From NCBI RefSeq assembly GCF_000473165.1, contig NZ_KI421504.1:1561337-1625336 (forward strand): 64,000 bases of DNA, written 5' to 3'. The position numbers and the translations under genes were made by a program. The notes beneath the pieces were generated by a model, which saw only the letters and a program-made list of their open reading frames with translations, was not told where the DNA came from and did not search any database. Below are positions 9,862 to 48,456 of this stretch, in pieces (the first letter of the stretch is position 1; each line of letters starts with the position of its first letter). Source of the DNA: Leisingera aquimarina DSM 24565 (lineage in GTDB: Bacteria; Pseudomonadota; Alphaproteobacteria; Rhodobacterales; Rhodobacteraceae).

Positions 9862-12143
9862 CTGTCCATCCGCATGATGACCTGAACTTCGCCCTTGACG
9901 GCTTCGCCCCAGCGCAGCCGGATCTCGTCGTTGTTCGAGCCTTGCTGCGCTTCGGTATACGGCACAATGTAGCGGGTGCTGTTGCCGCCGCTCTTCAGCG
10001 CGCCCAGCGGCACCACGCTATCGACATAGCGGGCAAACCCTTGGAACGGCAGCAGCCCCTCGGCCTGCACCGACCAGGAGGTTGAGGCCGAAGATTGATC
10101 GTGCCGCACCCGCAGCGGGTTGGCGGTTTGCGCCGCGACGTTGTGGTACATGTTGCCGCTGAAATCGACGTTTTTAGACCGGCTGAAATCCAGATCCGAA
10201 AAACTGGTATCCACCCGTTCCGCCCGGTCGATACTGCCCTGAAGCGAGCGGAATTTATTGCCGGTAACAGAAAGCCCGTTCAGGAAATGGCCGCTGCCAT
10301 AGGGTTTAACGACGATATAGCTGAACCACGGCGCGACATCGCCGGACAGGAACACATTGGCGCTCACTGACAAGGCGCTGAACGAGAATCCGCCGGTGAA
10401 GTCAGGTGTTGCGTCCCGCTCGTTGGTCCATTCGATAAAGCAATTGTCGATGTAATTGTCCGAAACGGTTGAGGTGCAGTTGTTTGAGGCCAGAACCAGC
10501 CCCGCCGTGCGCACGCCGTTGGCGATATTGTCGCCCTGAAAAAAGTGATTGCCGGTCACCGTGTTGCTGCCGCCTGCCAGCAGCGCGAAATGGCGGAACC
10601 TGGTGGCCCGGTTGCTGCGCAGCTTTGCATCGTTGGCATTGACGTTGAGGCCGATACTGACCCGGTCCGGCACATCCTCTCCGTCCTCATTCGACAGGAA
10701 CTGGCAATTGTCCACCAGAATCCCCTGACAGCCGGAACCAGCCGACGTGATGCCCCGGTCCTTGGGGCGTGAAAAGAAACAACTGTCAAACGCGTTCACC
10801 GACCCGGCCGGCGCCAGCCGCACTGCGCTGCAGCGGCCATTGCACTGAAACTCGATGCCTTCCATACCGAATTTGCTGAGCGAACTGAAGCCGCTGAAAT
10901 CCACCAGATACTTGAAGTCGTGGAAAGTGAACGTCTGGGTGCCTTCAGCATCATACAATGCCCCGCTGAGGGTCAGCTCTCCGGCGCCGGTGTTTTTGGA
11001 TTTCACATAGATCTCGCGGCCCACCCCGGCGCCTTCGACCAAAGAGCCAACTGCAACATTGGTGATGTTCGCAACATTGGTCAGCTTCTTGGAGTCCGAT
11101 GCACTGTAGGTTGCCTGCGAGATCACAGCATCGGTGTCCCAGGCCGCATTGCTGGCGGCCTCCAATTGGCCGTTCCGGATGACCCGGCGGGTCGCATAGG
11201 AGCTTTTGTTCGGGACTGCCGCTTGCATGTCGATCGGCCCGGTGACGGTGATCTTGCGGCCCTTCAGATCGAGGGATTCATGATCTGCGTTGTTGATCAG
11301 CGCCTGAAACGCCTTTTTGAACCCCAGTTCCTCATTGCCGAATGCCGCCGCATATGCGGGGAAATCGAAATTCTTTGTCAGCAGCAGCATCTGGCTGTCC
11401 GGCATGGAAACGGTGCCTTCGAACACGGCCTGGTGGTTCAGCGAAACGGTGCTGTTCAGGCGGAAATCCCCTGCAGGCACCAGGATGCGCCGCCCGTCGG
11501 CAGCAGCATCGGCCGCTTCAAAAGCCGCCGTGCAATCAAAGCTGCCATTGCCCACCGCGCCATAGTCCGTGACGTCCACCACGCTCAGCATGTCGCGCAC
11601 AAAAGCGCTGGTGATATCGGTGATTTCGATATCGTCGATCCGCACCACGCCGCCGTTGGCGCCGGTCAGGTCGAGGCCGAAGTGGCCGTAGGCCGCACTG
11701 CGCCCCCACGGCATGTCCACCCCGCCGCGTTCGCCGCTGCCGACGATGCCGGTGACTTCGAGTACTTTGCCATAGGTGCTGAGCGCATGCTGCTGCCCGG
11801 CTTCGGACACGCCGCCGATGTGGCTGCCGCCGCTGGCACCAGCCCAGCCTGCAACGCGGACCGCAGGCAGCGCGCCGCTAACAGCCTTGATACGGATCTT
11901 GATCTGCAGGTAGCAGCCCGGTTGCAGCGGCGTCTGGCCCATGAAGCGCAGCTTCTGGGTGTTCTCAGTCTTCTGCATCTCCAGGCAGCCGCCGAAATCA
12001 GCGTCCGCCGCCACAAAAACCGCATTGGCCGCGCCGTCATAGGTGTCCGACCCCGGCGTGCCGTCGCCGCTGGACCAGACGTTCAGACCGTCCGCAAAGG
12101 CGGGGGGCATCAGCTGCAAACCTTCGGTGATTGCCTTGTTCAT
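9858..12143 (-). CDS. Large right-handed beta-helix protein (pectate-lyase-3 type), possible GTA head-spike homologue
   Basis: The protein has 761 residues. Residues 1-180 form a jelly-roll-like ligand/attachment domain (MPPAFADGLNVWSSGDGTPG near the start). At 188-230 is the classic start of a pectate-lyase-3/GH28-related helix (VVDVTDYGAVGNGSFDCTAAF ... RRILVPAGDF). Repeated short coils such as 'NTVTGNHFFQGDN' and 'STVSDNYIDNCF' follow. There is no signal peptide. Such architecture is typical of phage tail spikes. From memory the N-terminal part resembles the GhsB head spike of Rhodobacter gene transfer agents, which binds host capsule; this was not checked by search. No other GTA gene is in the window. 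AAGGAAA precedes the ATG. Confidence 0.75.
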   Translation of the reverse strand: MNKAITEGLQLMPPAFADGLNVWSSGDGTPGSDTYDGAANAVFVAADADFGGCLEMQKTENTQKLRFMGQTPLQPGCYLQIKIRIKAVSGALPAVRVAGWAGASGGSHIGGVSEAGQQHALSTYGKVLEVTGIVGSGERGGVDMPWGRSAAYGHFGLDLTGANGGVVRIDDIEITDITSAFVRDMLSVVDVTDYGAVGNGSFDCTAAFEAADAAADGRRILVPAGDFRLNSTVSLNHQAVFEGTVSMPDSQMLLLTKNFDFPAYAAAFGNEELGFKKAFQALINNADHESLDLKGRKITVTGPIDMQAAVPNKSSYATRRVIRNGQLEAASNAAWDTDAVISQATYSASDSKKLTNVANITNVAVGSLVEGAGVGREIYVKSKNTGAGELTLSGALYDAEGTQTFTFHDFKYLVDFSGFSSLSKFGMEGIEFQCNGRCSAVRLAPAGSVNAFDSCFFSRPKDRGITSAGSGCQGILVDNCQFLSNEDGEDVPDRVSIGLNVNANDAKLRSNRATRFRHFALLAGGSNTVTGNHFFQGDNIANGVRTAGLVLASNNCTSTVSDNYIDNCFIEWTNERDATPDFTGGFSFSALSVSANVFLSGDVAPWFSYIVVKPYGSGHFLNGLSVTGNKFRSLQGSIDRAERVDTSFSDLDFSRSKNVDFSGNMYHNVAAQTANPLRVRHDQSSASTSWSVQAEGLLPFQGFARYVDSVVPLGALKSGGNSTRYIVPYTEAQQGSNNDEIRLRWGEAVKGEVQVIMRMDS

Positions 12144-12240
12144 GAGATTTCCTTTTCCTGCTGCGCATGTCGCGTTCAGGGAAAAGGATTTACAGATGCC
12201 GCGTTAAATTCCGCCCAGCGGTGCGTGCGCAGGCCAGGGC

Positions 12241-12642
12241 TCAGACGCTTTCATCCTGCCCTTTCAGAAGGTGTACGGCGTTGATTTTCCATCCGCTTTC
12301 CAGGTTAATCATTTGGTAATCCAATAGGTGCACGGCGCCCTGCTCGTCGGTGACCATCACCCGCTGCCACAGGCTGCCGGCCACTTCGCGCAATTGCAGG
12401 TAACGCACCTCAACAGGTCGCCAGACCATCGGGTAGCCCTGGCGCACCATCTCGCCAAAGCGGTCCGGGGTGCCGAAAATGCGCCGGATCGCCGGCGAAG
12501 CATAGGAGAAGGCGGTTTCGGTATCATTGTTCAGAAAGGCAGAAATCTGAGAGCCGATCACGGCTGTGACCGGCTCCCTTTGAGCTATTGCCGGGAAGGC
12601 CAGAAGAAAAACACTTACCCCCGCAAACAGAACACTGCGCAT
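12241..12642 (-). CDS. DUF4864-type exported protein
   Basis: From ATG 12642 (GGGAGG upstream) this is a 133-residue protein with a signal peptide (MRSVLFAGVSVFLLAFPAIAQ). A small alpha/beta domain follows: 'VTAVIGSQISAFLNNDTETAFSYASPAIRRIFGTPDRFGEMVRQGYPMVWRP'. This matches the DUF4864 pattern (a SnoaL/NTF2-like fold with a tail on gamma-beta structure). Function is unknown. It lies upstream of the beta-helix gene on the same strand, about 100 bp apart. Confidence 0.8.
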   Translation of the reverse strand: MRSVLFAGVSVFLLAFPAIAQREPVTAVIGSQISAFLNNDTETAFSYASPAIRRIFGTPDRFGEMVRQGYPMVWRPVEVRYLQLREVAGSLWQRVMVTDEQGAVHLLDYQMINLESGWKINAVHLLKGQDESV

Positions 12643-12766
12643 CTGTCCCTCCCGGTCCGTTTGACTCCAGTTAGGGCAAAGTGACGTTGCGTCAAAGAAA
12701 ATTTTGGGGGAGCTGGTGCACAGCGCGGGACAAGGCCGCAGGCCGCCGCGCATGGCTGAAAAAGAA

Positions 12767-12790
12767 AAGGGCGCGAAAACCCGCGCCCTT
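12767..12790 (-). terminator. Rho-independent terminator after lysK
   Basis: Arms aagggcgcg and cgcgccctt form a perfect 9-bp stem with a 6-nt loop. On the minus strand the stem is followed by a T-rich run (revcomp of gaaaaagaaaa). It lies 24 bp beyond the lysK stop. Confidence 0.85.
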
Positions 12791-12813
12791 GCTGATCGCT
12801 ATTCGGTGAAAGC

Positions 12814-14457
12814 TCAGGCCAGCTCGCCCGCCAGCGCCTTTTCGATCAACGCGATGGTGTCCTCGACGCCGTAAAGCGCGATGAAGCCGCCGAAGCGGGG
12901 ACCTTGGGAGGCCCCCAGCAGCACCTCGTAGATCGCCGAGAACCAGGCGCGCAGCGGCTCGAAGCCATGGATCTTGCCGATGGCAAAGACCACGGATTGC
13001 AGGAATTCCTCATCCGCGAAATCGGCCTCGGGCAGCGGGTCGTCGCTGCCGGCCAGCTCGTTCTTCTTGGCGATTGCTGCCAGTGCGGCCTCCGGCGATT
13101 TCAGCGCATCGGCCAGATCCTGCAGCGCTGCACGCTCTTGATCGGTAGGCAGGCGGAATACTTTGGCGGGTTTCACGAAGTCGTTGAAATAGGCCACAGC
13201 AAAACCTGCCGCCTGATCCATCGCCGGATTGGTCTCCGGCGTGGCATCGGGTGCATATTTGTTGATGAAGCCCCACATGGTTTCCTTGTCCTCGGCGCTG
13301 GAGGCCGAAGCGAGGTTGAGCAGCATCGAGAACGGCACCACCATATCGGACTGCGGCACGTCACCGCCGTGGATGTGCCAGACCGGGTTGTTCAGCTGCC
13401 CCTTCAGGTCCTGGGTGTGATAGGCGCGCAGCTGCTGGTGGTATTCGTCCACTGCCTTGGGGATCACATCGAAATGCATCCGCTTGGCGGTCTTGGGCTT
13501 CTGGTACATGAAATACGCCAGCGACTCTGTCGAGGCATAGGTCAGCCATTCGTCGATCGAGATGCCGTTGCCGGAGGTTTTCGAGATCTTTTGGCCGTTG
13601 GCATCCAGGAACAGTTCATAGGTGAAATGCTCCGGCGCGCGGTGGCCCAGAACCCGGCAGATGCCGTCATAGATCGGTGTATTGGTGGAGTGATCCTTGC
13701 CGTACATCTCAAAATCGACTTCCAGCGCCGCCCAGCGGGCGCCGAAATCCGGCTTCCACTGCAGCTTCACATTGCCGCCAGTGACCGGCAGGGTCCATTC
13801 CTTGCCGTTTTCGTCGTCAAAGGTGACGGTGTAAGTTTCAGCGCAGACCTTCTTCATCGGAACATAGAGGACGCGGCCGGTTTCCGGATGGATCGGCAGG
13901 AAGATCGAATAGGTCTGGCGGCGTTCCTCACGCAAGCTCTTCAGCATGATCGCCATGACGTCGTCGTATTTGTCGACAGCGCGTTTCAGCACCTCGTCGA
14001 ACTGGCCGGATTGGTAGAACTCCTGCGCCGAATAAAATTCATACTCGAAGCCGAAGGTATCCAGGAAGCGGCGCAGCATGGCGTTGTTGTGGTGGCCAAA
14101 GCTCTCATGGGTGCCAAACGGATCCGGCACCGAGGTCAGCGGTTTTTGCAGATGCTCCTGCAGGCTGTCGGCATTGGGCACATTGCCCGGCACCTTGCGC
14201 ATCCCGTCCAGATCGTCCGAAAAGCAGATCAGCTTGGTGGGTATGTCCGAGATCACCTCGAACGCGGTTTTGATCATGGTGGTGCGGGCGACCTCGCCGA
14301 AGGTGCCGATATGCGGCAGGCCCGATGGGCCATAGCCGGTCTCAAATAGAACATAGCCCTTGTCCGGCGCGCCCTTGGCATAACGTTTGAGAACCCGGCG
14401 GGCCTCTTCAAACGGCCAGGCTTTGCTCTTCAGAGCTTCTTCGCGCACATCAGACAT
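12814..14457 (-). CDS. lysK: Lysyl-tRNA synthetase, class I
   Basis: The 547-residue enzyme is the archaeal/alphaproteobacterial class I LysRS. It has the HIGH-like motif [13 protein letters not shown] (PHIG at 48-51) and the KMSKS-like motif [10 protein letters not shown] (KISKT at 290-294). It charges tRNALys with lysine. The start at 14457 (MSDVREEAL) follows GGAG; earlier in-frame codons give an unrelated basic stretch. A class I enzyme is typical of Rhodobacteraceae and supports the host assignment. Confidence 0.96.
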
Positions 14458-32295: not shown

Positions 32296-33423
32296 TCAGG
32301 CGTTTGCCGGATCGGTTGCCACAGTGCTGGCCCCGGAACTGGCCAAGTCGCGTTCAATCAGGTCCTGGAAAGCGCGGACGCTGTCTTCCCAGGCGGGCGA
32401 CAGCAGGCCGCCATCGGCCGCAACTGGAGATTTGCGGCCTTCGAACATGCGTTCGACCATCTCGTGGTCTTCCTTGTGGACATCCCACCAAAGTGTTTTC
32501 AGGCATTCGATTTCCTCGGCGCTCAGCTCCTCGCCTTCGGTGGTGTAAAGCGCGCGGTACTGGCGCATCTTGCCGGGGCCGATGGGTACGTTCAGGTAGA
32601 CGCCCAGCTGGTCGGGGAAGTATCGCCCCAGGATGAAGTTGGGATAAAGCGTCAGATAGCGCGAGCTGACTCCGAGGCTGCCGGAGGTGCCGATCTCCTC
32701 CTTCAGATCCACGGCGCTGCCGATGCAGTTGCCGTCGGTGATGGTATAGTGATCCTCCAGCGGCTGGTCGGTGGTCGAGGCATGCACGAACTGGACATGG
32801 TAGGGCTCGATGAAGTTCTCCATGATCAGTTTCCAGTTGGTGTCGATCTCGCCGAAATCGAGGAGGCCGATCGGTTCCACCTTGGCAAAATCCATCCCTT
32901 CAAGACGGTTGATCAGCGGTGCGGCATACTCTTCGAACTCCGGCGCGTTGCCGTCCAGGTTGACGAAGATCCAGTCGTGCCAGACATGGGTGCGCACAGG
33001 CTTCAGGCGGTGCTCCTTCAGATCGAAACCGTCAAACTCCTGCTTGCCGGTGCCGGCAAAATGCGGTGCGGCGCGCAGTCGGCCCTCCAGGTCATAGGCC
33101 CAGGCGTGATAGGGGCAGCGGATCAGCTTGCCGACGTTCTTGGGCTTGTCCACCAACGTCATGCAACGGTGCAGGCAGACGTTGTGGAACACCTGGATGC
33201 TGTCGTCCTGATCGCGTACCGTCAACAACGGCAGACCGGCGCAGCTGACCGGGTTGGCATCGCCGGGATTGGCGATCTGATGGGCAAAACCGATGAACAC
33301 CCAGTTCTTGGACAGGACCGTCTGGCATTCCCGTTGCCAGATGCCCTCGCTGCGGTAGGCGTCCGCGGTCAGGCCATGCTGAGGCCCTCCGGCTACCCGT
33401 GCTTTTTCTTCGGCAATTGTCAT
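32296..33423 (-). CDS. Rieske non-haem iron oxygenase, alpha subunit
   Basis: The 375-residue enzyme starts at ATG 33423 (GGGAGG upstream). Rieske [2Fe-2S] ligands are Cys83/His85 (CLH) and Cys103/His106 (CPYH). The mononuclear iron site shows NWKLIMENFIEPYHVQFVH with His209 and His214. Glu202 stands where many oxygenases have the bridging Asp. Carnitine/choline-type Rieske oxygenases also use Glu there, which hints at a quaternary or secondary amine substrate. No reductase gene is in the operon, so electrons must come from elsewhere. It is the first gene of the minus-strand operon. Confidence 0.92.
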   Translation of the reverse strand: MTIAEEKARVAGGPQHGLTADAYRSEGIWQRECQTVLSKNWVFIGFAHQIANPGDANPVSCAGLPLLTVRDQDDSIQVFHNVCLHRCMTLVDKPKNVGKLIRCPYHAWAYDLEGRLRAAPHFAGTGKQEFDGFDLKEHRLKPVRTHVWHDWIFVNLDGNAPEFEEYAAPLINRLEGMDFAKVEPIGLLDFGEIDTNWKLIMENFIEPYHVQFVHASTTDQPLEDHYTITDGNCIGSAVDLKEEIGTSGSLGVSSRYLTLYPNFILGRYFPDQLGVYLNVPIGPGKMRQYRALYTTEGEELSAEEIECLKTLWWDVHKEDHEMVERMFEGRKSPVAADGGLLSPAWEDSVRAFQDLIERDLASSGASTVATDPANA

Positions 33424-33870
33424 TTGTCCTCCCTTCGACACTGCCACATGCACAGCGGCTTTATGGGCCATGCGCATGGAAACTGTTCTTGCACTGACTG
33501 TCCCGTTTCAGGTTCTGCGCCATTCGCAGGACTTGGATGTCATGTTTGCGAAAATCGCACGATTTGGCAACATTTTTTTACGATATTCGTCGTTTTATGG
33601 AATTTTCAGACAAGAAATAGGAGAAAGCTGTTCAGAAAGCGTCAAGTGAGTGCGAAATTCGCATGTATCAGTCGGGTCAGTGCCGGGAATCGCTTTTTAT
33701 AGCAGGAGATCTGCCGGACACCGTGCCTGCAGCAGGGCATTTGCGGCGTGTCCGGGCGAAGGCGCTGGATTGCAGGCTCCTGGAAACGGGAAATGCCGCG
33801 TGAGTGGTTTGCGAATTCCGCCATGGATGCTTATGGTCGGTTGCGGATACAGTAACCGGGCAGCAGGCAT
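33424..33870. promoter_or_regulatory. Divergent control region with two 13-bp palindromes
   Basis: The gap between the Rieske and Lrp genes has no gene and is AT-richer than its flanks. It holds tgcgaaaatcgca at 33547-33559 and tgcgaaattcgca at 33651-33663. These two nearly identical palindromes have starts 104 bp apart, about ten DNA turns. A weaker relative (tgcgaattccgc) begins at 33810. They fit operators for the adjacent Lrp/AsnC protein; binding is inferred. Confidence 0.7.
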
Positions 33871-36984: not shown

Positions 36985-39864
36985 ATGCCGATACCAGACT
37001 GGGCCCTTGATCTCGAAGCCTCAAAAACCGGCACGAAAGCCAACGACAAAATGGATGGGACCACTGGCGACGACACGATCGACGCCGGTGCAGGCGAGGA
37101 TACCGTTGCCGGTGAAGAAGGCAGCGACCTGATAGACGCCGGCGAGGGCAATGATACCGTTTATGGCGATATGGGGGAGGGGTTCGACCAGGGGCTGGAT
37201 GCCACGCCGCTGGTGCTGGATATCAACAACATCCAGAGCATTTCCTACGACAGCTGGGCTGGATCTGCAGGCAATAACGCCGTCTTCAGCGACGTGGCCA
37301 CCTTGGAGGACGGAACCAAAGTCTGGGGAAGGCTGGTTCTGGTGGAGAAATCCAATCCGGACATGACAGTGCAATTCGGCTACACAGCCGGTGCAGAAAT
37401 CCTGTTGGGTGGTGACGATCCGGGTGACCAGGCGACCTTCCGGCTTGAGTTCTTTGATCCGGATACCGGTGAGCCGGTATACTTGAATTCCACGGCGACC
37501 TTCAATGACGTGGATGACAACAGCGGTCATGGCGATGCCGAGGCCGTTATAATCGACGGCAATAGTTTCACCTCTTTCGGGGTGTCTTCGGACTCGTCAC
37601 TCGGCACTGCGGTTGACGGCAGCGTGGTCACCGCCACCGGGTCCGACTACAACGATTACACCGATCAGGATGCCTGGTTTTCTGCCGGATTCGAAGATAA
37701 ATCGTCGATTGAGTTCACATTGCAAACCCGTGAAGGCTGGGCGGGATTTACCCTTTCGGGCAGCACGATTGATGACCCGGTCACCACCGCCTTAGAACAG
37801 GGGGCCGATACTGTTATGGCCGGTGACGGCAGCGACGTTGTCTTTGGTCAGGGGGGGGATGACTCCCTGTTCGGCGAGGCTGGCAATGACAGTTTGGATG
37901 GTGGCGATGGCGACGACGTTCTGGATGGCGGCATCGGTGCGGACACACTGATCGGCGGTGCCGGGGGCGACACGCTCTCTGGCGGTGAAGGCGATGATTA
38001 CATCGAAGGGGGCGCAGGCAACGACAGTCTGACCACCGGTCTTGGCAATGACACGCTGATCGGCGGCGAAGGCGATGACACGCTGAGGAACTCCGCCGGT
38101 GATGATAGCTTGGTCGGCGGAGTGGGCAACGACAGCATCGTGGCAACCAACGGCAACGACACCCTTGAAGGGGGGGATGGTGCCGACACCATGTACGGCG
38201 GCAACGATGACGACCTGCTGGTTGGCGGCAGCGGCAACGATCTGATGTACGGCGAGTCAGGCCATGACAGCCTGGAAGGCGGCGACGGCGACGATGTGAT
38301 GGATGGCGGGCTCGGCAACGACACCCTGATCGGGGGTGCCGGCGCCGACACGATCGCCGGGGGCGATGGCGACGACTACATCGAAGGCGGCGACGGCGAC
38401 GACAGCCTGACCACCGGTCTTGGCAATGACACGCTGATCGGCGGCGCGGGCAATGACACGCTGAGGAACTCCGCCGGTGACGACAGCCTGGTTGGCGGCG
38501 CCGGTGACGACAGCATCGTCGCAACCGAGGGCAACGACACCCTAGAAGGAGGCGACGGCGCCGATACCATGTACGGCGGCAACGATGACGATCTGCTGGT
38601 CGGCGGCAGCGGCGACGATCAAATGCACGGCGAGGCTGATGCTGACACGTTCCAGATGTCCGACGGGTTCGGCAATGACACCCTGACCGGCGGCGAGGCG
38701 GGAAATGACCTCGATACGGTCGATGTCTCGGCGGTCACCACCGGGGTTACGGTCACCTACACCGGCGATGAGGCCGGCACGATCACCGACGGCTCCGACA
38801 CGATTACCTTTTCCGAGATCGAGGCGCTTAAGCTGACGGATCAGGGGGATGTTGTGGATGCTTCGGCTGACAGCGCCGGGGTGTCGATCGACGCAGGCGC
38901 GGGCGATGACACGATCACACTTGGTTCGGGTAACGACTCCATTACCACCGGGGCGGGATATGACGAGCTGATCCTGACAGGGGCGGGCGGCATCGACACT
39001 GTCAGCGACTTCAGCATTGCCGATGATGACAGCGACGGTTTTTTCAACGACCAGCTTGATGTTTCCGATCTGACCGGCGGCACCGGACCCGACGGGGCTG
39101 TTCGCACCAGCGATGTCTCCGTAACCGACGATGGATCCGGCAATGCCCTGCTAACGTTTCCAGGAGGTGAAAAGATTGTTCTGGAGGGGGTGGCCCCGTC
39201 GCAGATCACAACCACAGCCCAGCTCATTTCTGCAGGTATCCCTTGTTTCACATCGGATGTTCTTCTCGCCACCAAGCGTGGCGCAGTGCCCGCAGGCCGG
39301 ATCCAGGTGGGCGACATGCTGCAAACCGCCGACAATGGGTTCCAGCCAGTTATCTGGGTCGGCAAACGCACTCTGAGCCAGGCAGACTTGGCGGAGCGCC
39401 CGCATCTGAGGCCGTATTGCGTCCGCCCGGGCGGTTTGCTGACTCCAGAGCGGCCAATGCTGCTGTCCCCCCAGCATCGCCTGTTAGCCGGCCCCAGGGC
39501 CTTTGGGCAAGACACGCAGTTTGGCGAAAGCTTTCTGTCTGCGAAACTGCTGGCAGAAATTGACAAAAACTGCACCCAACAGACCGGGACAGCCGCTCCG
39601 GTCACCTATGTGCATCTCCTGACTGAGCGGCATGAGGTGATTTTCGCAGAAGGCATCGCAACAGAGACATTCTGGCCCGGTCCCGAAGCAGTCCGCGGGT
39701 TGTGCGCTGCAGACAGGCGGGAACTGTTCGGCCTCTTCCCCGAACTGGCTGCCGTTCATGGGTTGGTCGGCGAACACGGCCGCGGGCTGGTCCGCAGGGC
39801 TTACGGCGACCTGGCCCGCCAGGCGCTTAAGCGGCGCAACCTGCAACACCTGCATGCCGCCTGA
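36985..39864 (+). CDS. RTX-repeat protein with C-terminal Hint domain
   Basis: The 959-residue protein has no classical signal. RTX-type repeats (GGxGxDxLxx) occur near 25-60 and densely at about 275-540, and would bind Ca2+ outside the cell. Residues 60-270 form a separate beta-rich domain. A C-terminal Hint domain begins at Cys754 (CFTSDVLLATKRGAVPAGRIQVGDML), with 'LLSPQHRLLAG' near 835. Hint domains self-process proteins; in roseobacters such RTX/Hint proteins are secreted, probably by type I export. A 378-bp DNA repeat underlies the RTX block. Its role (adhesin, enzyme carrier) is unknown. Confidence 0.88.
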   Translation: MPIPDWALDLEASKTGTKANDKMDGTTGDDTIDAGAGEDTVAGEEGSDLIDAGEGNDTVYGDMGEGFDQGLDATPLVLDINNIQSISYDSWAGSAGNNAVFSDVATLEDGTKVWGRLVLVEKSNPDMTVQFGYTAGAEILLGGDDPGDQATFRLEFFDPDTGEPVYLNSTATFNDVDDNSGHGDAEAVIIDGNSFTSFGVSSDSSLGTAVDGSVVTATGSDYNDYTDQDAWFSAGFEDKSSIEFTLQTREGWAGFTLSGSTIDDPVTTALEQGADTVMAGDGSDVVFGQGGDDSLFGEAGNDSLDGGDGDDVLDGGIGADTLIGGAGGDTLSGGEGDDYIEGGAGNDSLTTGLGNDTLIGGEGDDTLRNSAGDDSLVGGVGNDSIVATNGNDTLEGGDGADTMYGGNDDDLLVGGSGNDLMYGESGHDSLEGGDGDDVMDGGLGNDTLIGGAGADTIAGGDGDDYIEGGDGDDSLTTGLGNDTLIGGAGNDTLRNSAGDDSLVGGAGDDSIVATEGNDTLEGGDGADTMYGGNDDDLLVGGSGDDQMHGEADADTFQMSDGFGNDTLTGGEAGNDLDTVDVSAVTTGVTVTYTGDEAGTITDGSDTITFSEIEALKLTDQGDVVDASADSAGVSIDAGAGDDTITLGSGNDSITTGAGYDELILTGAGGIDTVSDFSIADDDSDGFFNDQLDVSDLTGGTGPDGAVRTSDVSVTDDGSGNALLTFPGGEKIVLEGVAPSQITTTAQLISAGIPCFTSDVLLATKRGAVPAGRIQVGDMLQTADNGFQPVIWVGKRTLSQADLAERPHLRPYCVRPGGLLTPERPMLLSPQHRLLAGPRAFGQDTQFGESFLSAKLLAEIDKNCTQQTGTAAPVTYVHLLTERHEVIFAEGIATETFWPGPEAVRGLCAADRRELFGLFPELAAVHGLVGEHGRGLVRRAYGDLARQALKRRNLQHLHAA
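37867..38622 (+). repeat. 378-bp tandem duplication within the RTX gene
   Basis: Copies at 37867-38244 and 38245-38622 encode two 126-residue blocks that are almost the same (for example SLTTGLGNDTLIGG and GNDTLRNSAGDDSLVGG in both). The unit is a whole number of codons, so loss or gain keeps the frame. DNA identity is high, pointing to a fairly recent duplication. Confidence 0.85.
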
Positions 39865-41189: not shown

Positions 41190-41383
41190 GTTCTCGCGGG
41201 GGGCTGGCATCCGGAATCCCAATTCGATTAAAAAATTTTAATGGTAATATATATACACATAATGTTCGGGCGGGAAAGCGTGATAACCAGCTTTACAGCC
41301 GGTGCGGCCGGATCAGTTGCCTGGCAGCACAAGGCCTGCAGGCACGCGCGCAGAAATACGGCTGGCCTTTTCCGGCAATATAG

Positions 41384-41396
41384 TTGACAATGTCAA
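41384..41396. promoter_or_regulatory. Palindrome overlapping the marR start region
   Basis: ttgacaatgtcaa is a perfect 5+3+5 palindrome immediately before the ATG at 41402. It resembles a MarR-type operator, which would let the protein block its own mRNA start and the downstream dehalogenase. Inference only. Confidence 0.55.
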
Positions 41397-41401
41397 TTAA
41401 T

Positions 41402-41854
41402 ATGACTGACCAGCGCTTCCATCTCCACAACTCCCTAGGCTACCAGGTCACCATGCTGGCGCGGGTGATCGAGCGCCGTTTTGAACAGCGCATTGCTGAA
41501 CACGGGCTGACCCGCGTCACCTGGTGCGTGCTGCTGGCCGCGGGTGAAGAGGGTCTCAGCACTCCGTCGGAGATTGCGGATTTCATCGGCATCGACAGAA
41601 CCGCCACCTCGCGCGCCCTGCGGCAGATGGAGGCGCGCGGCCTGATCACTCGCAGCAGCGGCACCGGCGACGGCCGCTCGATCCGGGTGGGGCTGACTAT
41701 GCCGGGGCAGGCGGCGCTGCAGGCGGTCTTGCCGGTTGCGCAGGAAAACGCCGCCCATTTCGAGGCCAAGCTTACCGCGCAGGAACTGGCAGAGCTGCGT
41801 CAGACCGCGGCCAAACTGCTGCAGGACGAGCCGCGCATCGTCGCCAAGCTGTAA
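41402..41854 (+). CDS. MarR-family regulator linked to the dehalogenase
   Basis: The 150-residue regulator (from ATG 41402; 41390 and TTG 41384 are alternatives) has the MarR winged helix 'LSTPSEIADFIGIDRTATSRALRQMEARGLITRSSGTGDGRSIRVGLT' at about 53-100. It is 17 bp upstream of the reductive-dehalogenase gene and on the same strand. MarR proteins control rdh genes in Dehalococcoides, so ligand control by a halophenol is a fair guess. No clear Shine-Dalgarno is seen. Confidence 0.92.
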   Translation: MTDQRFHLHNSLGYQVTMLARVIERRFEQRIAEHGLTRVTWCVLLAAGEEGLSTPSEIADFIGIDRTATSRALRQMEARGLITRSSGTGDGRSIRVGLTMPGQAALQAVLPVAQENAAHFEAKLTAQELAELRQTAAKLLQDEPRIVAKL

Positions 41855-41871
41855 CTCCTCAGGGGCAAACC

Positions 41872-44800
41872 ATGGGCAAACTGTTTTCATACCGCAACCG
41901 GCCTGTGCATCTGGGCGCCTATCCGATGGAGACGCTGGCGCGCCAGGCGGCACCTGCGGACCTGGACAGGCTGCCGCCGTTGTCCCGGACGTCTTTCCGC
42001 CGCCCTGAAGCTCCCTTGTCGATCGTCAATGCGATGCGCGACTATCAGGCGATGCTGGACGCTACTCGTGAAGGGCTGGTGAAAAAGGAACGCGCGAACA
42101 TCCCCGCAAACCCGCAGGAGCGCACGGATCACCTGAAGGCATTCGGCTATTTCTGCGATGCCTCGCTCGCGGGCGCCTGCACAGTACCATCCGGCGCCTG
42201 GCTGGACACACCGTTAACGAACCCGGACGTGGCGGCGCTGGCCGCGGATCTGCGCACCAAACAAACCAAGACCTTTGCCTCTGGCATCGACGTGGTGATG
42301 GCCAGTTTGCGCGAGTCGATGCAGGCCTCGCCCGCAGACTGCCGCCACCACACGTACGCGCTGGTCTATGTCTATGAATTCTCCCGCGATCCCGAAACGG
42401 GTGAGGAGGGCACCGAATGGCTGGCGGATGCGCAGGAACAGCGCGCCTGCCTGCGGGCGGCAGAAACCGTGGTGACGCTGGCCAATTACATCCGCCTGTT
42501 GGGGTGGGAGGCGCGCGCCCACACCGGTGCCACCAGTGATGTGCATCTGGGCAAGCTGGCGGTGCAGGCAGGTCTTGCCACCTGTGAAAACGGAGTTCTG
42601 ACCAACCCATTCCTCGGCAGCCGCTTTGGCATTGCTGCCGTAACCACTACGTTGGAGCTGGCCTCCGATCAACCGCTGTCGCCGGGCCAGGCGCCGGGCT
42701 TCAATTACCGGATGGGCCTTGGCGCCCACGCCAAAAGCGCCAACACCCGCGATCCTTACGCCAAGCGCCGCTTCATGGATGGTGCGCACCCGTTCGAGAC
42801 CCTGAAACGGGTGGAAGACCCAACAACCTATATCGACGAAGTGAACGTCGCCCGGGTGCCGAAACGCGCCGACATGTTTGCGCGCTCCTTGTTCGGTGAT
42901 CTCGGCAAAGGCCCGCAGGAGGCGGCGAAGAACGGCAACTACGTCCGAAAGTCCTCCTCGGCCTTTGCCTTCCGCACCTCGCTCGCAGCATTTGTGCTGC
43001 TGCAGGACGGCGAAGCCGCGTCGCAGGTGGACCCCAGCGCTGCAGACGCCGCCCGCAATGCCGCGAATATCAAGGCCGCCGCCTATTTCCTCGGCTGCGA
43101 CGCGGTGGGCATCTCGCGCTGCCCGGACTGGGCCTATTACTCCCACGACGCGGCGGGAGAGCCACTGGCCCGCTATCACGAAAACGCCATCAGCATCATC
43201 ATCGACCAGGGTCACGAAACCATGGAGGGGGCCTCCGGCGACGACTGGATCGCCTGCGCCCAGTCGATGCGTGCCTATCTGCGGTTCTCGCTCTTGGGCG
43301 GGGTGATCGCGCAGCAGATCCGCAACCTCGGCTACACCGCCCGGGTGCATTCGGTAATGGACGGCGAAGTGCTGCAGCCGCCCTTGCTGCTGCTTTCAGG
43401 TCTTGGCGAAGTGTCCCGCATCGGCGAGGTGATCCTGAATCCCTTCCTTGGTCCGCGGCTGAAATCCGGCGCCGTTACCACCAACCTGCCGATGACCCAT
43501 GACAGGCCGATCGATTTCGGCCTGCAGCGGTTTTGCGAGGCCTGCAATAAATGCGCCCGCGAATGCCCCTCCGGCGCCATCACCGCCGGGCCGAAGCTGA
43601 TGTTCAACGGCTACGAGATCTGGAAATCCGACAGCCAGAAATGCACCACCTACCGCGTCACCGTCCCCGGCGGCGCCATGTGCGGCCGCTGCATGAAAAC
43701 CTGCCCCTGGAACCTCGAAGGCCTGTTTGCCGAGGCGCCCTTCCGCTGGGCGGCAATGAACCTGCCGGGCAGCGCGCCGCTGCTGGCGAAACTCGACGAT
43801 GCGCTGGGCAATGGCGAGATCAACCGCACCAAGACGTGGTGGTGGGATTTGGAGATGGCGGAGGAGGGCCCTTATGCGCCCTCGCAGCATCCTGTGAACG
43901 TCCGCAAACTGTCCAAGGACCTGGACTTGAAGTTTGAGGACCAGACCCTGGCGGTCTACCCGGCGCCGCTGGCACCGCCGCCCTATGCCTGGCCCGCGCC
44001 GATGGACCGCGAGGCCGGGATTGCCGCCTATCAGGCCATGATCCCGGCGTCCGAGCACAAGCGCCGCCGCGCCGCAGGCCTGCCGCCCGAGCATGTCTAT
44101 ACCGCCGGCCAGGGCGCCGCACCGGTGATGCGGGTGCGGCTCTCCAAGGTGGAGCAGATGACCGATGCCGTCACCAAGTATGAGTTCTCCCTGCCGGACG
44201 GCGCCCTGCTGCCCGCGGCCACTGCGGGCGCCCATATCGACGTGGTTGTGGCACCGGAGTTCTTCCGCCAGTACTCCCTGTCAGGCGACCCGGCGGACCG
44301 CACGAAATACCAGATCGCAGTGTTGCGCGAGGACACGGGCCGCGGTGGTTCCAGGCTCATGCACCGGATCTTCGAGGAAGGCCGGATGGTGTTCATCTCC
44401 AAACCCATCAACCATTTCCCGCTGGTCGAGGGTGCGGCCAAATCCTATTTGATGGGCGGCGGCATCGGGGTGACCCCGATGATCGCCATGGCGCATCGCC
44501 TGCAGGCCTTGGGCAAAGACTTTGAATTCCGCTACTCATGTTCGAACAAGGCAAGCGCAGGGTTTCTTAAGGACCTGAAGGGCGTCCCTTGGGCTGACAA
44601 AGTGCATCTGCATTTCTCGGATCAAGGCTCCCGCGCAGATCTGAAACACGTGCTGCGCTATGCGCCCGGCAGCCATGTCTACACCTGCGGACCGGAAGCC
44701 TACATGCAGGCGGTGCAGGACGCGGCAGAGGCAAGCGGCTTCCCCGAGGAGAGCTGCCACATGGAGTATTTTTCGGTCCCTGAGCAGCCCGAATATGAAA

Positions 44801-45069
44801 ACCACCCCTTCACCCTGAGGCTCGCGAAATCGGGCCGGGAAATTCTGGTGCCAGCCGAAAAAACCGCCATCGAGGCACTGGCCGAAAGCGGTATCCATGT
44901 GGATGTGAAATGCTCCGATGGCATTTGCGGCGTCTGCAAGTGCGGGCTGATCTCAGGCGACGCGGATCACCGCGACTTCGTGCTTTCGAATAAGCAGCGC
45001 GAGGGCGCCATCATCCTCTGCCAATCCCGCGCGGTTGAACCGGACGGCGTGCTGGAAATCGACCTCTAG
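41872..45069 (+). CDS. Self-sufficient reductive dehalogenase (RdhA fused to flavin-ferredoxin reductase, BhbA-like)
   Basis: The protein has 1065 residues. Residues 1 to about 700 form a reductive dehalogenase: a cobalamin-domain region and two [4Fe-4S] sites, Cys555/558/561/565 (CEACNKCARECP) and Cys591/604/607/611 (CGRCMKTCPW). Two similar blocks (NPFLGSRFGIAAVTT at 245-259 and NPFLGPRLKSGAVTT at 523-537) show an internal duplication. From about 750 a reductase follows: flavin site RQYSLSG (799-805), nucleotide site GGGIGVTPM (862-870), and a C-terminal [2Fe-2S] ferredoxin with Cys1014/1019/1022/1050. No Tat signal exists, so it is cytoplasmic. The layout matches the Comamonas BhbA type, which removes bromine from bromo-hydroxybenzoate with NADPH. 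The substrate here is unknown. AGGGGC precedes the ATG. Confidence 0.93.
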   Translation: MGKLFSYRNRPVHLGAYPMETLARQAAPADLDRLPPLSRTSFRRPEAPLSIVNAMRDYQAMLDATREGLVKKERANIPANPQERTDHLKAFGYFCDASLAGACTVPSGAWLDTPLTNPDVAALAADLRTKQTKTFASGIDVVMASLRESMQASPADCRHHTYALVYVYEFSRDPETGEEGTEWLADAQEQRACLRAAETVVTLANYIRLLGWEARAHTGATSDVHLGKLAVQAGLATCENGVLTNPFLGSRFGIAAVTTTLELASDQPLSPGQAPGFNYRMGLGAHAKSANTRDPYAKRRFMDGAHPFETLKRVEDPTTYIDEVNVARVPKRADMFARSLFGDLGKGPQEAAKNGNYVRKSSSAFAFRTSLAAFVLLQDGEAASQVDPSAADAARNAANIKAAAYFLGCDAVGISRCPDWAYYSHDAAGEPLARYHENAISIIIDQGHETMEGASGDDWIACAQSMRAYLRFSLLGGVIAQQIRNLGYTARVHSVMDGEVLQPPLLLLSGLGEVSRIGEVILNPFLGPRLKSGAVTTNLPMTHDRPIDFGLQRFCEACNKCARECPSGAITAGPKLMFNGYEIWKSDSQKCTTYRVTVPGGAMCGRCMKTCPWNLEGLFAEAPFRWAAMNLPGSAPLLAKLDDALGNGEINRTKTWWWDLEMAEEGPYAPSQHPVNVRKLSKDLDLKFEDQTLAVYPAPLAPPPYAWPAPMDREAGIAAYQAMIPASEHKRRRAAGLPPEHVYTAGQGAAPVMRVRLSKVEQMTDAVTKYEFSLPDGALLPAATAGAHIDVVVAPEFFRQYSLSGDPADRTKYQIAVLREDTGRGGSRLMHRIFEEGRMVFISKPINHFPLVEGAAKSYLMGGGIGVTPMIAMAHRLQALGKDFEFRYSCSNKASAGFLKDLKGVPWADKVHLHFSDQGSRADLKHVLRYAPGSHVYTCGPEAYMQAVQDAAEASGFPEESCHMEYFSVPEQPEYENHPFTLRLAKSGREILVPAEKTAIEALAESGIHVDVKCSDGICGVCKCGLISGDADHRDFVLSNKQREGAIILCQSRAVEPDGVLEIDL

Positions 45070-45078
45070 CCGGGCGCT

Positions 45079-45116
45079 GCAATTTTCTTAGGCAGGAAAA
45101 TTGCTAATTTTTTTTA
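45079..45116 (+). terminator. Rho-independent terminator after the dehalogenase
   Basis: A perfect 9-bp stem gcaattttc/gaaaattgc (loop 8 nt) is followed after two bases by a run of T's. It lies 10 bp past the stop codon. Confidence 0.85.
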
Positions 45117-45141
45117 AAAAAACTTTTGCGCGCGGCAGCGG

Positions 45142-45534
45142 TTAGTACGGTTGCCGCTCTCCCAGCAAATACCGCGCCGCATCGACGTAATCAAAGGCCA
45201 GCGAAACTGCGATCACTGTGCAGACAGCCAGGATGATCCGCCGCGGCCATTCTGGCATACCGGGCTGCGCCCGCTGCCGCCACAGCCAAATCAGCAAAGG
45301 TGTCCACAGGACCACATGCGGCAGTCCCAAGAGGCGCACATATCCAAGCTGCCCGTATAGCCAGTAAACTCCGGCCCCCGCCAATACACTGGCCGCCACC
45401 GTGACCAGCCCGGCCACCCGGCTGGCCTTCCAGATCAGCAGCGCCAGCGGCAGGACAAATGCACCCAGGAACAGGATGTTGACCCAGATCTGCACCCAGA
45501 GGGGCTGGCTTGCGATCGCTTCGTTCAGTGTCAT
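45142..45534 (-). CDS. Small four-helix membrane protein, unknown
   Basis: From ATG 45534 (GGGAGG upstream) the product is 130 aa with four hydrophobic helices (about 14-34, 38-58, 64-82 and 100-118) and an aromatic/Trp-rich loop (WTPLLIWLWRQ). It is 52 bp downstream of the sulfatase gene on the same strand and may be its membrane partner. A longer frame upstream of the ATG is not supported. Confidence 0.7.
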   Translation of the reverse strand: MTLNEAIASQPLWVQIWVNILFLGAFVLPLALLIWKASRVAGLVTVAASVLAGAGVYWLYGQLGYVRLLGLPHVVLWTPLLIWLWRQRAQPGMPEWPRRIILAVCTVIAVSLAFDYVDAARYLLGERQPY

Positions 45535-45586
45535 TGCAGACCCTCCCGTTGGCGAGCCTAGGGAAAGGCCGGATCGTCGGCAAGCG

Positions 45587-47062
45587 CTACAGCGGCGAAC
45601 CTTCGCGCATCTGGTCCTGCTCGTCGGGTGTTGGCGTGTGGTTGAACACATAAGCCGTGCGACAGGCTTCTTCGCCGCCCAATTCGGCAATCCGGCGGCG
45701 CTGGTCGGCAAAGGCGCGGGCATTTACTTCTTCCGGATCGCAGATCGCCCGGAGCCGCCGGTCTCCTTCGGCCAGGGCTGCCGTGACCTCCGGATCGTTC
45801 CTTCCGTCCATTGTCCGGTCCGTTTGTTCCTGCGGGTCGGCCTCCAGATCGAAAAGCTGCGGCTGCATTCCGGCGTAATGGACATACTTCCACCGGCCCC
45901 AGCGCACCATAAAGGCACCGGTTTTCGATCCGCCGTCATGATACTCGCTGAAACCGCTGCGGGTCTCGTCATAAGGCGCACTGGCAATCCTGCGCAGCGA
46001 TTCGCCCGGCAGCCCTTCGCTGACAGCATCTTCTGCCAGGCCGCAGACTTCCCGCGCGGTGGCGGCGATGTCGGTCAAACTGGTGCAAGTCGCCAGGCGC
46101 CCGCCTGCCGGAATGCCCGGACCCGCGGCAATCATCGGCACCCCGGCGCTGGCCTCATACATCACCTGTTTGGTCCAGAACCCCTGATCGCCCATCATAT
46201 CGCCGTGATCCGACACATAAAGGATCACGGTATTCTCCAGTTGGCCGCTTGCCTCCAGCGCTTGGATCACCCGGCCCGTACAATGATCCATGAACGACGT
46301 CAGCCCGTAATAGGCCGCCTTGGCCTCGCGCATTTTCTGCTCATCGAAATAGTCGCCGTAATTGAAGAACGCGGCAATATTGCGAAGCTCCTCATGGTCC
46401 GGAAGTCCCGCGCCATAGCCCACTGGCAGATCCATCTCTGCCGGATCATACATGCTGTACCACTTTTCGGGACAGGTCAGCGGATAATGCGGGCTGACCA
46501 GCGACACAAAGGCGGCCCAGGGCTGATCCTGCCGTTTCGGATCCGCCAGCCAGGCCTCTGCTGCGCCCGTGATCGTCAGGTCGTAATCAGTATAGGTGCT
46601 GGATCCCGCGCCCACATCGCCTGCCAGCTCTGCCGCCGCGTCGTAGTCCGGCGGGTTCTCCCGCAACAGGCCGACCGCCCAGCCGACGCCGCCGACCACA
46701 TGCATCGGCAGGATCTCCTCGGAAAACCCGTTGTCATCCTCGCCCGACCTAAAATGCAGCTTGCCGATTGAAACCACCTCGCGGCCTGCCTCCCGCAGCT
46801 GATGCATCCAGCTTTGCGGCTCTCCGGCATAGGGCGTCGCGCTGTCCCAATGCCCACTCTTATGCACCCAGTCGCCGGTGGCCAGCGCCGCCCGCGCCGG
46901 CACGCACATGGGTGAGGGCGTATAGGCCGAGGTGAACATCGTGCCGCGTGCGGCCAGCGCATCCAGGTTCGGGGTTTTCACAATCAGATGACCGGCGCAG
47001 CCCATCGCATCTTTGCGGTGCTCGTCGGAGATGATGACAAGGAAATTCAGTTGCTGGCTCAT
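45587..47062 (-). CDS. Sulfatase (alkaline-phosphatase superfamily, arylsulfatase type)
   Basis: The 491-residue enzyme has the formylglycine site PMCVPARAALATG at 52-64 (Cys53 to be oxidised) and the N-terminal metal Asp of 'VIISDEHRKD'. 'YVSDHGDMMGDQGFW' and other sulfatase motifs follow. The fourth site residue is Ala (C-V-P-A-R) where Ser is most common. No signal peptide is present, so it is probably cytoplasmic. Activation needs a formylglycine-generating enzyme, which is not in the window. Choline-O-sulfate or another sulfate ester are possible substrates. Confidence 0.9.
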   Translation of the reverse strand: MSQQLNFLVIISDEHRKDAMGCAGHLIVKTPNLDALAARGTMFTSAYTPSPMCVPARAALATGDWVHKSGHWDSATPYAGEPQSWMHQLREAGREVVSIGKLHFRSGEDDNGFSEEILPMHVVGGVGWAVGLLRENPPDYDAAAELAGDVGAGSSTYTDYDLTITGAAEAWLADPKRQDQPWAAFVSLVSPHYPLTCPEKWYSMYDPAEMDLPVGYGAGLPDHEELRNIAAFFNYGDYFDEQKMREAKAAYYGLTSFMDHCTGRVIQALEASGQLENTVILYVSDHGDMMGDQGFWTKQVMYEASAGVPMIAAGPGIPAGGRLATCTSLTDIAATAREVCGLAEDAVSEGLPGESLRRIASAPYDETRSGFSEYHDGGSKTGAFMVRWGRWKYVHYAGMQPQLFDLEADPQEQTDRTMDGRNDPEVTAALAEGDRRLRAICDPEEVNARAFADQRRRIAELGGEEACRTAYVFNHTPTPDEQDQMREGSPL

Positions 47063-47224
47063 ATTGTCCCCGCTCTTGACTGCAGGTCCAGACTGCAAGC
47101 GAAACACGGCCGCTGAATGCCGTTTTGCGTCATCCTGAAGGCGGAATACACTTATTAGCCATGGCTCTTCTATTGGTTCCAGGGTTGCGTGTTGTGAAAC
47201 AGGCTGCTAGTCATCTGGAATATT

Positions 47225-47253: not shown

Positions 47254-48456
47254 ATGACCGACAACAGGCTGCCGGTTACGGTCCTGTCCGGCTTTCTTGG
47301 GGCGGGCAAGACCACGCTCCTGAACCACGTCCTGAATAATCGCGCGGGCCGCAAGGTGGCGGTGATCGTCAATGACATGAGCGAAGTGAACATCGACGCA
47401 GACCTGGTGCGCGGCGGGTCCGAATTGTCGCGGCAGGACGAAAAACTGGTGGAGATGACCAACGGCTGCATCTGCTGCACCCTGCGCGATGACCTGCTGC
47501 AGGAAGTGCGCCGCCTCGCGGGGGAGGGGCGCTTTGACTATCTGTTGATCGAAAGCACCGGAATTGCCGAACCCTTGCCGGTGGCCGCAACTTTCGATTT
47601 CCGGGATGCCGATGGCGCCAGCCTGTCGGACGTAGCCCGGCTGGACACGATGGTGACGGTGGTCGATGCGGTGAACCTGCTGCAGGACTTCAGCAGCCAC
47701 GATTTCCTCAGCGACCGCGGCGAAAGCCTGGGTGAGGAAGATGACCGCACATTGGTCAACCTGCTGACCGACCAGATCGAGTTCGCCAATGTCATTATCC
47801 TGAACAAAGTGTCGGATGCAGGGCCGGATCAGACCGCCGCAGCCATGGCCGTCATCAAGGCGCTGAACCCGGATGCCGCAGTGATCCACGCGGATCATTC
47901 CAAGGTGGACGGCGGCAGGATCTTTGACACCGGCCGGTTCGATTTCGACCGTGCGCATGAGCACCCCCTCTGGGCCAAGGAACTCTACGGTTTTGAACAC
48001 CACGTGCCGGAGACCGAGGAATACGGCATTTCCTCCTTTGTGTACCGGGCCCGGCGGCCCTTTGATCCCGCCCGGATTCACGCAGTGCTGAACGGTGATC
48101 TTCCTGGCGTGATCCGGGCCAAGGGGCATTTCTGGCTGGCGACCCGCCCTGAATGGGCCGCCGAGTTCTCGCTGGCCGGGGCAATTTCCTCGATCCGCCC
48201 GCTGGGCCTGTGGTGGGCTGCAGTGCCAACAGAACGCTGGCCCGCCCACCCTGAGGCCCGGCGCGAGTTCCTGCAAAACTGGGATGAAACCTGGGGCGAC
48301 CGCCGCCAGGAACTGGTGTTTATCGGCGCGGGACTGGATAAGGACGCGATCTCCGCCCGCCTCGACGCCTGTCTGATGCAGGAAGCGCCTGGCGGCTTTG
48401 ACCCTGCCTGGGACGCGCTGGACGATCCCTTCCCGGGCTGGCGCCGCAATGGCTGA
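47254..48456 (+). CDS. COG0523/CobW-family GTPase, probable zinc metallochaperone
   Basis: The 400-residue G3E GTPase has Walker [10 protein letters not shown] (13-21) and the metal site GCICC (71-75). It also has a Walker B region '[14 protein letters not shown]' and '[10 protein letters not shown]'. A CobW C-terminal domain starts near residue 250, with '[22 protein letters not shown]'. The preceding Zur box and the absence of cobalamin genes point to a zinc-allocating role (ZigA/YeiR type) under zinc limitation. GGAG precedes the ATG. Confidence 0.93.

Follow-up and report, generated by a model that had tools for sequence, protein, structure and literature searches.

Which kind of reductive dehalogenase does Leisingera aquimarina DSM 24565 encode behind a gene for a MarR-family regulator, what would it act on, and how might it be controlled? 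The gene in question, rdhA, lies in a stretch of 64,000 nucleotides of contig NZ_KI421504.1 (positions 1,561,337 to 1,625,336, hereafter the window), and its product is referred to as P0001. The answer reached is a predicted one: a debrominating enzyme of the BhbA type that depends on reduced nicotinamide adenine dinucleotide phosphate (NADPH), together with an adjoining MarR switch. A probability of roughly 0.87 is given to this joint reading. We infer the activity, cofactors and oxygen tolerance of P0001 and the induction of marR-rdhA.

All redox parts are carried on one chain, as an earlier note on this DNA had proposed. P0001 exceeds the cut-off of the reductive dehalogenase model TIGR02486 (205.9 bits against 160.35, residues 436-646), Fer2 and two 4Fe-4S double-cluster families exceed theirs in Pfam, and residues 753-1062 match phthalate dioxygenase reductase (PDOR; 2pia, E 1.5e-57). 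The motifs RQYSLSG and GGGIGVTPM of the reductase module presumably bind flavin mononucleotide (FMN) and NAD(P)H. The eight [4Fe-4S] cysteines (C555, C558, C561, C565; C591, C604, C607, C611) and the four [2Fe-2S] ligands (C1014, C1019, C1022, C1050) do not vary in any of the 121 aligned sequences, which comprise P0001 and 120 listed homologues of the 3075 found. The part list of the earlier note stands, having missed a vestigial N-terminal domain, an operator-like palindrome and a second dehalogenase.

The full-length collinear relative is BhbA of Comamonas sp. 7D-2 (plasmid pBHB, NC_021077.1), 49.9% identical over 1059 columns (49.8% over residues 3-1065 of P0001), which keeps all the listed catalytic and Fe-S residues. 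The BhbA locus is situated on a conjugative plasmid with protocatechuate 4,5-dioxygenase, transporter-binding-protein and insertion sequence (IS) genes and has no MarR among its 14 listed features, whereas P0001 is encoded on a 4.25-Mb contig behind marR. The collinear alignment and the kept active-site residues support, at the level of sequence, the earlier view of P0001 as a catabolic, cytosolic enzyme of the BhbA type rather than one of organohalide respiration. NpRdhA from Nitratireductor pacificus (4ras, 6zxu; PMC7565698) offers a solved structure with vestigial and catalytic domains and the same six active-site residues; its chains, of 704 and 725 residues, lack the reductase module that P0001 has. 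The starts of the two proteins match up, and the alignment to 4ras_A (E 1.5e-158) runs in two stretches, residues 3-105 and 155-734. Between them, residues 106-154 of P0001 (about 49) stand opposite only some 6 residues of the shorter NpRdhA. Fused enzymes have a specific insert of their own, whose position is not located in the text available (PMC10463259), and the two are only noted as parallel. A second, weak TIGR02486 match (44.6 bits) in the N-terminal half of P0001 leads us to read this half as a vestigial duplication, which is a mark of catabolic dehalogenases (PMC10463259).

Two different answers would be a reductive dehalogenase of the respiratory type and an epoxyqueuosine reductase (QueG). 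P0001 shows kinship to the respiratory PceA (4uqu, E 8.4e-33) and matches the QueG model weakly, yet either identity is hardly credible. The twin-arginine (Tat) pattern [ST]RRxF[LK] of the respiratory type was not found in residues 1-80 by motif search, an NAD(P)H reductase is fused to the chain, and the QueG model TIGR00276 gives 29.2 of 200 bits, below its cut-off; on these grounds both readings were rejected. The lack of a Tat signal stated earlier was thereby borne out, and the accompanying statement on a membrane anchor is based on inspection of the sequence. Pfam gave no match for the next open reading frame (45142-45723, minus strand), a search that did not include a model of RdhB.

The active site was mapped in the gap-free part of the NpRdhA alignment, where P0001 numbering equals that of NpRdhA plus 43. 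NpRdhA S422, M423, Y426, K488 and R552 correspond to S465, M466, Y469, K531 and R595, all identical, and F291, mapped with an offset of 45 after two gaps, falls on F336 and is kept. These six residues are invariant in all 121 aligned sequences and also in 83 of 83 locus proteins, BhbA included. The Tyr, Lys and Arg halophenol residues, which the earlier note had proposed to check against BhbA and NpRdhA, are therefore all present (Y469, K531, R595).

The substrate is approached through JtRdhA (WP_104007082), whose host, Jhaorihella thermophila, we take to be an alphaproteobacterium. According to its published description, on which alone it is likened to P0001, JtRdhA is marine and Tat-less, has a duplicated cobalamin domain, two [4Fe-4S] clusters and a PDOR fusion, and keeps Y426, K488 and R552 as well as F291, S422 and M423 of NpRdhA; its regulator is not described in the available part of that paper (PMC10463259). 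Produced in E. coli, it contained 0.4 cobalamin, 0.53 FMN and 9.4 Fe per protein, used NADPH 1:1 in air, and debrominated and deiodinated ortho-halophenols (PMC10463259). Its best substrate was 3,5-dibromo-4-hydroxybenzoate; relative to this, 2-iodophenol reached 72%, 2,4,6-triiodophenol 66% and 2,6-dibromophenol 7%, and the chlorinated compounds tested were not turned over, chlorinated halophenols being inhibitors (PMC10463259). By analogy, the predicted reaction of P0001 is the NADPH-dependent removal of bromine or iodine from phenols. Candidate substrates are better sought among bromo- and iodophenols than among all halophenols, since JtRdhA, the marine relative that has been characterised, did not dechlorinate; the earlier proposal of halophenol substrates is narrowed to that extent.

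Three further pocket positions were mapped, and all three differ from NpRdhA. A419 is replaced by C462 (Cys in 118 of 121 sequences), F290 by M335 (Met in 112 of 121) and N452 by V495 (Val in 120 of 121); at these three positions Ser, Phe and Ala, respectively, occur in BhbA as well as in the enzyme of Nitratireductor OM-1. In NpRdhA, the residues named as shaping the pocket include F290 and A419, N452 moves upon ligand binding, and A419 was picked for altering specificity (PMC7565698). Reduction of chlorinated substrates is a property of NpRdhA that JtRdhA does not share (PMC10463259), so the three columns provide a lead on the selectivity for bromine over chlorine, and they bear on a question left open in that paper, why the fused enzyme takes the one and not the other. 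An enzyme of the same class might instead have an iodophenol, a halogenated tyrosine-like compound or a chlorophenol as its true substrate, with bromophenol as a side activity. The iodophenol rates of JtRdhA and the unlikeness of C462, M335 and V495 to both NpRdhA and BhbA speak for this idea, which is nevertheless rather improbable given the identity of the phenolate-binding and proton-donor residues, the preference of JtRdhA for 3,5-dibromo-4-hydroxybenzoate and its failure on the chlorinated compounds tested (PMC10463259).

For the favoured debromination and deiodination of phenols, the chemistry of solved and characterised relatives suggests that the halogen would ligate cobalt, that K531, R595 and S465 would hold the phenolate, and that Y469 would protonate the leaving carbon. 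A dehalogenated product resembling 4-hydroxybenzoate could then pass to PobA and on to protocatechuate 3,4-dioxygenase. Matches to PobA (673.8 bits, cut-off 538.7) and to the beta subunit of the dioxygenase (PcaH, 359.6 bits, cut-off 296.4) are encoded on the contig of rdhA, far from it. Protocatechuate 4,5-dioxygenase genes lie close to BhbA, with one gene between, and pobA lies at most 4 kb from the rdhA relative of Nitratireductor OM-1; by this analogy, hydroxybenzoate-type substrates are plausible. The cobalamin supply, which the earlier note had singled out for a check of the genome, is likely to be the host's own, judging from a CobN match over cut-off (total score 1059 bits, cut-off 822.05, in two pieces at C1:3934505-3937750), CobW over cut-off at C1:3933345 and five cobalamin riboswitches over cut-off.

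The second half of the answer concerns control. The earlier observation of an adjacent MarR gene is confirmed by a Pfam MarR_2 match directly upstream, with 17 nucleotides between the marR stop and the rdhA ATG. In 34 of 41 loci, marR is immediately preceded by a palindrome (TNRTTGACANTGTCAAYNA) with at most two mismatches, where 0.38 would be expected (mean of dinucleotide shuffles; maximum 3 in 100 rounds). These shuffle-controlled counts refer to the first 41 marR-adjacent loci, before L044 and L062 were added. In them, TTGACANTGTCAA was exact in 19, had one mismatch in 8 and two in 7, and was not found in 7; without the closest ten loci the corresponding numbers are 10, 7, 7 and 7 (31 loci). 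Of the added loci, L044 has the palindrome with one mismatch. By chance, 0.05 copies of the core would be expected in the window when one mismatch is allowed, and the sole perfect RTTGACANTGTCAAY match in the 5.34-Mb genome is at 41383-41397. An alternative TTG start of marR at 41384 in the list of open reading frames falls inside the palindrome; translation more likely starts from the ATG at 41402. Two further genomic sites have one mismatch, close to chance level as the reversed control gave one place; for this reason a wider regulon is not claimed.

The arrangement recurs on the Aminobacter plasmid pANY103b, where a one-mismatch palindrome precedes marR and rdhA is 59.5% identical. Within two mismatches, the palindrome was not found at the BhbA, Jannaschia, TM1040 and OM-1 loci, and in the loci without MarR a two-mismatch copy lies at most 400 nucleotides from rdhA in 4 of 38. 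A MarR profile searched over six frames in 81 loci (80 fetched and the window) located a same-strand MarR directly upstream of rdhA in 43, and this label is clustered on the rdhA tree (7 changes against 26.2 when shuffled; 41 + 37 rows, quick method). On a Jannaschia plasmid (L091:5458-9201), MarR is divergent from rdhA; as the palindrome is also missing there within two mismatches, a different regulatory arrangement exists. Six terminator-like sites were counted on both strands of 41200-45250, against 3.9 expected, and the one behind rdhA has the longest stem. The adjacent MarR, the conserved palindrome with its one perfect genomic copy and the terminator-like hairpin after rdhA make it probable that marR-rdhA forms a self-contained operon served by a private operator. 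The role of MarR as the rdhA switch gains support from the conserved palindrome, as far as sequence can tell. MarR would bind just before the marR start and repress both genes, until a halophenol or similar ligand released it; since the palindrome ends 2 nucleotides before the likely ATG, a bound repressor could block transcription. Published MarR control of such genes was not found in the open-access library that was searched.

Several points weigh against the joint reading. The palindrome is missing within two mismatches in 7 of the 41 marR-adjacent loci and likewise in L062, whose rdhA has no closed open reading frame. In 38 of the 81 loci no MarR was seen directly upstream in the six-frame profile search, which means that MarR control is not universal; among these, L084 has no upstream sequence, L040 has about 450 nucleotides of it, and in L068 a MarR lies 1.1 kb upstream. 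A consensus scan of 41200-45250 did not find a sigma-70-like promoter. The differences at M335, C462 and V495 mean that the substrate range of P0001 may differ from that of NpRdhA. One TGA was noted inside the second, last CobN piece; a possible interruption of cobN is one reading of it, a stop at the edge of the match another. Finally, no gene for catabolism of the product was found among the annotated window genes beside rdhA.

The loci without an adjacent MarR also favour a general aromatic-acid or stress regulator, blind to halogenated substrates, beside an rdhA that is constitutive or otherwise co-regulated, as does the fact that the MarR protein stays below the cut-off of every MarR equivalog model (best 49.3 of 200 bits; HpaR 47.9 of 121.2). 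Such a regulator is considered somewhat unlikely, as the single perfect palindrome of the genome stands directly before marR and the order palindrome-marR-rdhA recurs across genera and on the Aminobacter plasmid.

Besides P0001, the genome encodes a second, short reductive dehalogenase beside a gene that we take to be LysR-like. This protein has the motifs CDICTKCADACP at residues 283-294 and CAICMRVCP at 337-345, lacks a fused reductase and is 31% identical to P0001 over 278 columns. Both Fe-S motifs and their positions are as in Ros_A3X954 of Roseobacter sp. MED193, to which it is likened by these motifs alone; that enzyme, a Tat-less marine dehalogenase like P0001, converts 2,6-dibromophenol into 2-bromophenol and loses its activity on exposure to oxygen (PMC13101508). 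With a short dehalogenase of this type besides P0001, the cell probably contains two debrominases of different build.

The distribution of rdhA was surveyed in a family sample of 394 genomes from 393 genera, the window's own genome included. Matches at E of at most 1e-50 were obtained in 205 genomes; the best match was printed as E = 0 in 149 (hand count of the genome table), some of these being partial, e.g., residues 3-810 in G102 and 325-1064 in G099. In the remaining 56, E ranged from 2.3e-138 to 5.5e-51, and many of these weaker matches may cover the reductase part only. The nearest relatives are those of Leisingera (87-90% identity in the nine closest loci), among which the window row stands on the tree. 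The neighbours of rdhA are alike in 42 of 80 loci, some loci being shortened by contig ends; they are presumably an upstream gene for a HAD-type phosphatase-like protein and a PleD-like cyclase or a small conserved protein, and a gene taken to be MttB-like is present in 44 of 80. This shared setting is seen neither in the window nor in the nine loci closest to it (L005-L013). Among 12 matching plasmid records, 8 hold at least 80% of the protein at one place.

Some copies deviate in structure or placement. In Leisingera sp. JC1 (L013:10001-13197), rdhA runs over two overlapping frames (10001-12784 and 12730-13197), by either a frameshift or a sequencing error. A relative at G340:C29:202384-205005 aligns with residues 2-871 only, within an open frame of 2585 residues, and may belong to a larger fusion or result from the assembly. 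The rdhA genes of two metagenome-assembled genomes, Pimelobacter (L044, beside a Maritimibacter copy) and Oceanospirillaceae (L080), fall among the Rhodobacterales copies on the tree, for which binning errors are likelier than transfer.

Table 1. Coordinates of the features discussed (window positions unless a genome or locus record is named)
Feature	Position	Strand	Basis and remarks
Predicted MarR operator, palindrome TAGTTGACAATGTCAATTA	41381..41399 (core 41384-41396)	.	Conservation before marR
MarR-family regulator gene (marR)	41402..41854	+	Pfam MarR_2 E 7.5e-14; adjoins rdhA in 43/81 loci
rdhA, self-sufficient catabolic reductive dehalogenase gene	41872..45069	+	1065 residues, complete open reading frame, ATG start
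Vestigial N-terminal dehalogenase-like half, residues 1-390	41872..43041	+	NpRdhA alignment, weak TIGR02486; end approximate; includes F336 and residues 106-154
Functional cobalamin/dehalogenase domain, residues 391-646	43042..43809	+	TIGR02486, alignment, conservation; start approximate; holds S465, M466, Y469, K531, R595
First [4Fe-4S] motif, C555-C565	43534..43566	+	Fer4_7 555-614; conserved 121/121
Second [4Fe-4S] motif, C591-C611, R595 inside	43642..43704	+	Pfam; conservation
PDOR-like FMN/NAD(P)H module, residues 753-968	44128..44775	+	2pia match; RQYSLSG 799-805, GGGIGVTPM 862-870
Plant-type [2Fe-2S] domain, residues 986-1054	44827..45033	+	Fer2 E 1e-9
Terminator-like hairpin, 11 pairs, then TAATTTTTTT (T run)	45079..45104	+	9 nucleotides past rdhA stop
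Second, short reductive dehalogenase, 390 residues	C1:3882640-3883812 = L085:7641-8813		TIGR02486 168.4 bits, cut-off 160.35
Choline-sulfatase-like sulfatase	45587-47107	-	261.1 bits, cut-off 433.45; 6fny E 2.5e-57
RTX-repeat protein with Hint domain	36985-39864	+	Pfam
Rieske ring-hydroxylating oxygenase alpha subunit	32296-33477	-	No NCBIfam model over cut-off

To the right of rdhA lie the choline-sulfatase-like gene, a gene for a ZigA-like metallochaperone and a nitroreductase gene. An action of the sulfatase on algal bromophenol sulfates was considered and set aside, its relatives flanking 7 of the nine closest loci and no other locus. The CobW Pfam match at 47254-48456 belongs to a protein other than the cobalamin CobW (ZigA 598 of 600 bits, CobW 151.1 of 332.1), and the nitroreductase is not BluB (26.1 of 150 bits). 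Adjoining catabolic genes were sought as a clue to the substrate and dropped, there being none among the annotated neighbours. The region left of marR is strain-variable, and a relative of the RTX protein flanks only one of the nine closest loci; the Rieske oxygenase is possibly of the aromatic or betaine type.

P0001 is a new member of a subfamily already described, BhbA and JtRdhA being known and putative bhbA homologues being widespread in the Roseobacter clade (PMC13101508). The kind of enzyme was known before; what is added here is a predicted private operator, figures for its prevalence in the family, a signature in the pocket and a second dehalogenase in the genome. As a tentative and still doubtful extension, marR-rdhA might be a portable operon of marine Rhodobacterales for sensing and detoxifying bromophenols, with a private operator, a regulator that reads halophenols, and an enzyme that has its full electron chain on board and a clade-specific pocket (C462, M335 and V495 replacing Ala, Phe and Asn of NpRdhA) that selects bromine or iodine over chlorine for natural marine organohalides. 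The predicted operator could serve as a ready-made bromophenol biosensor and as a direct test of the use of the trait. Bromophenols are abundant in the sea and are partly made by marine organisms (PMC13101508), and the 149 of 394 genomes suggest that bacteria of this family debrominate in oxic seawater as a matter of course and not as specialists on pollutants.

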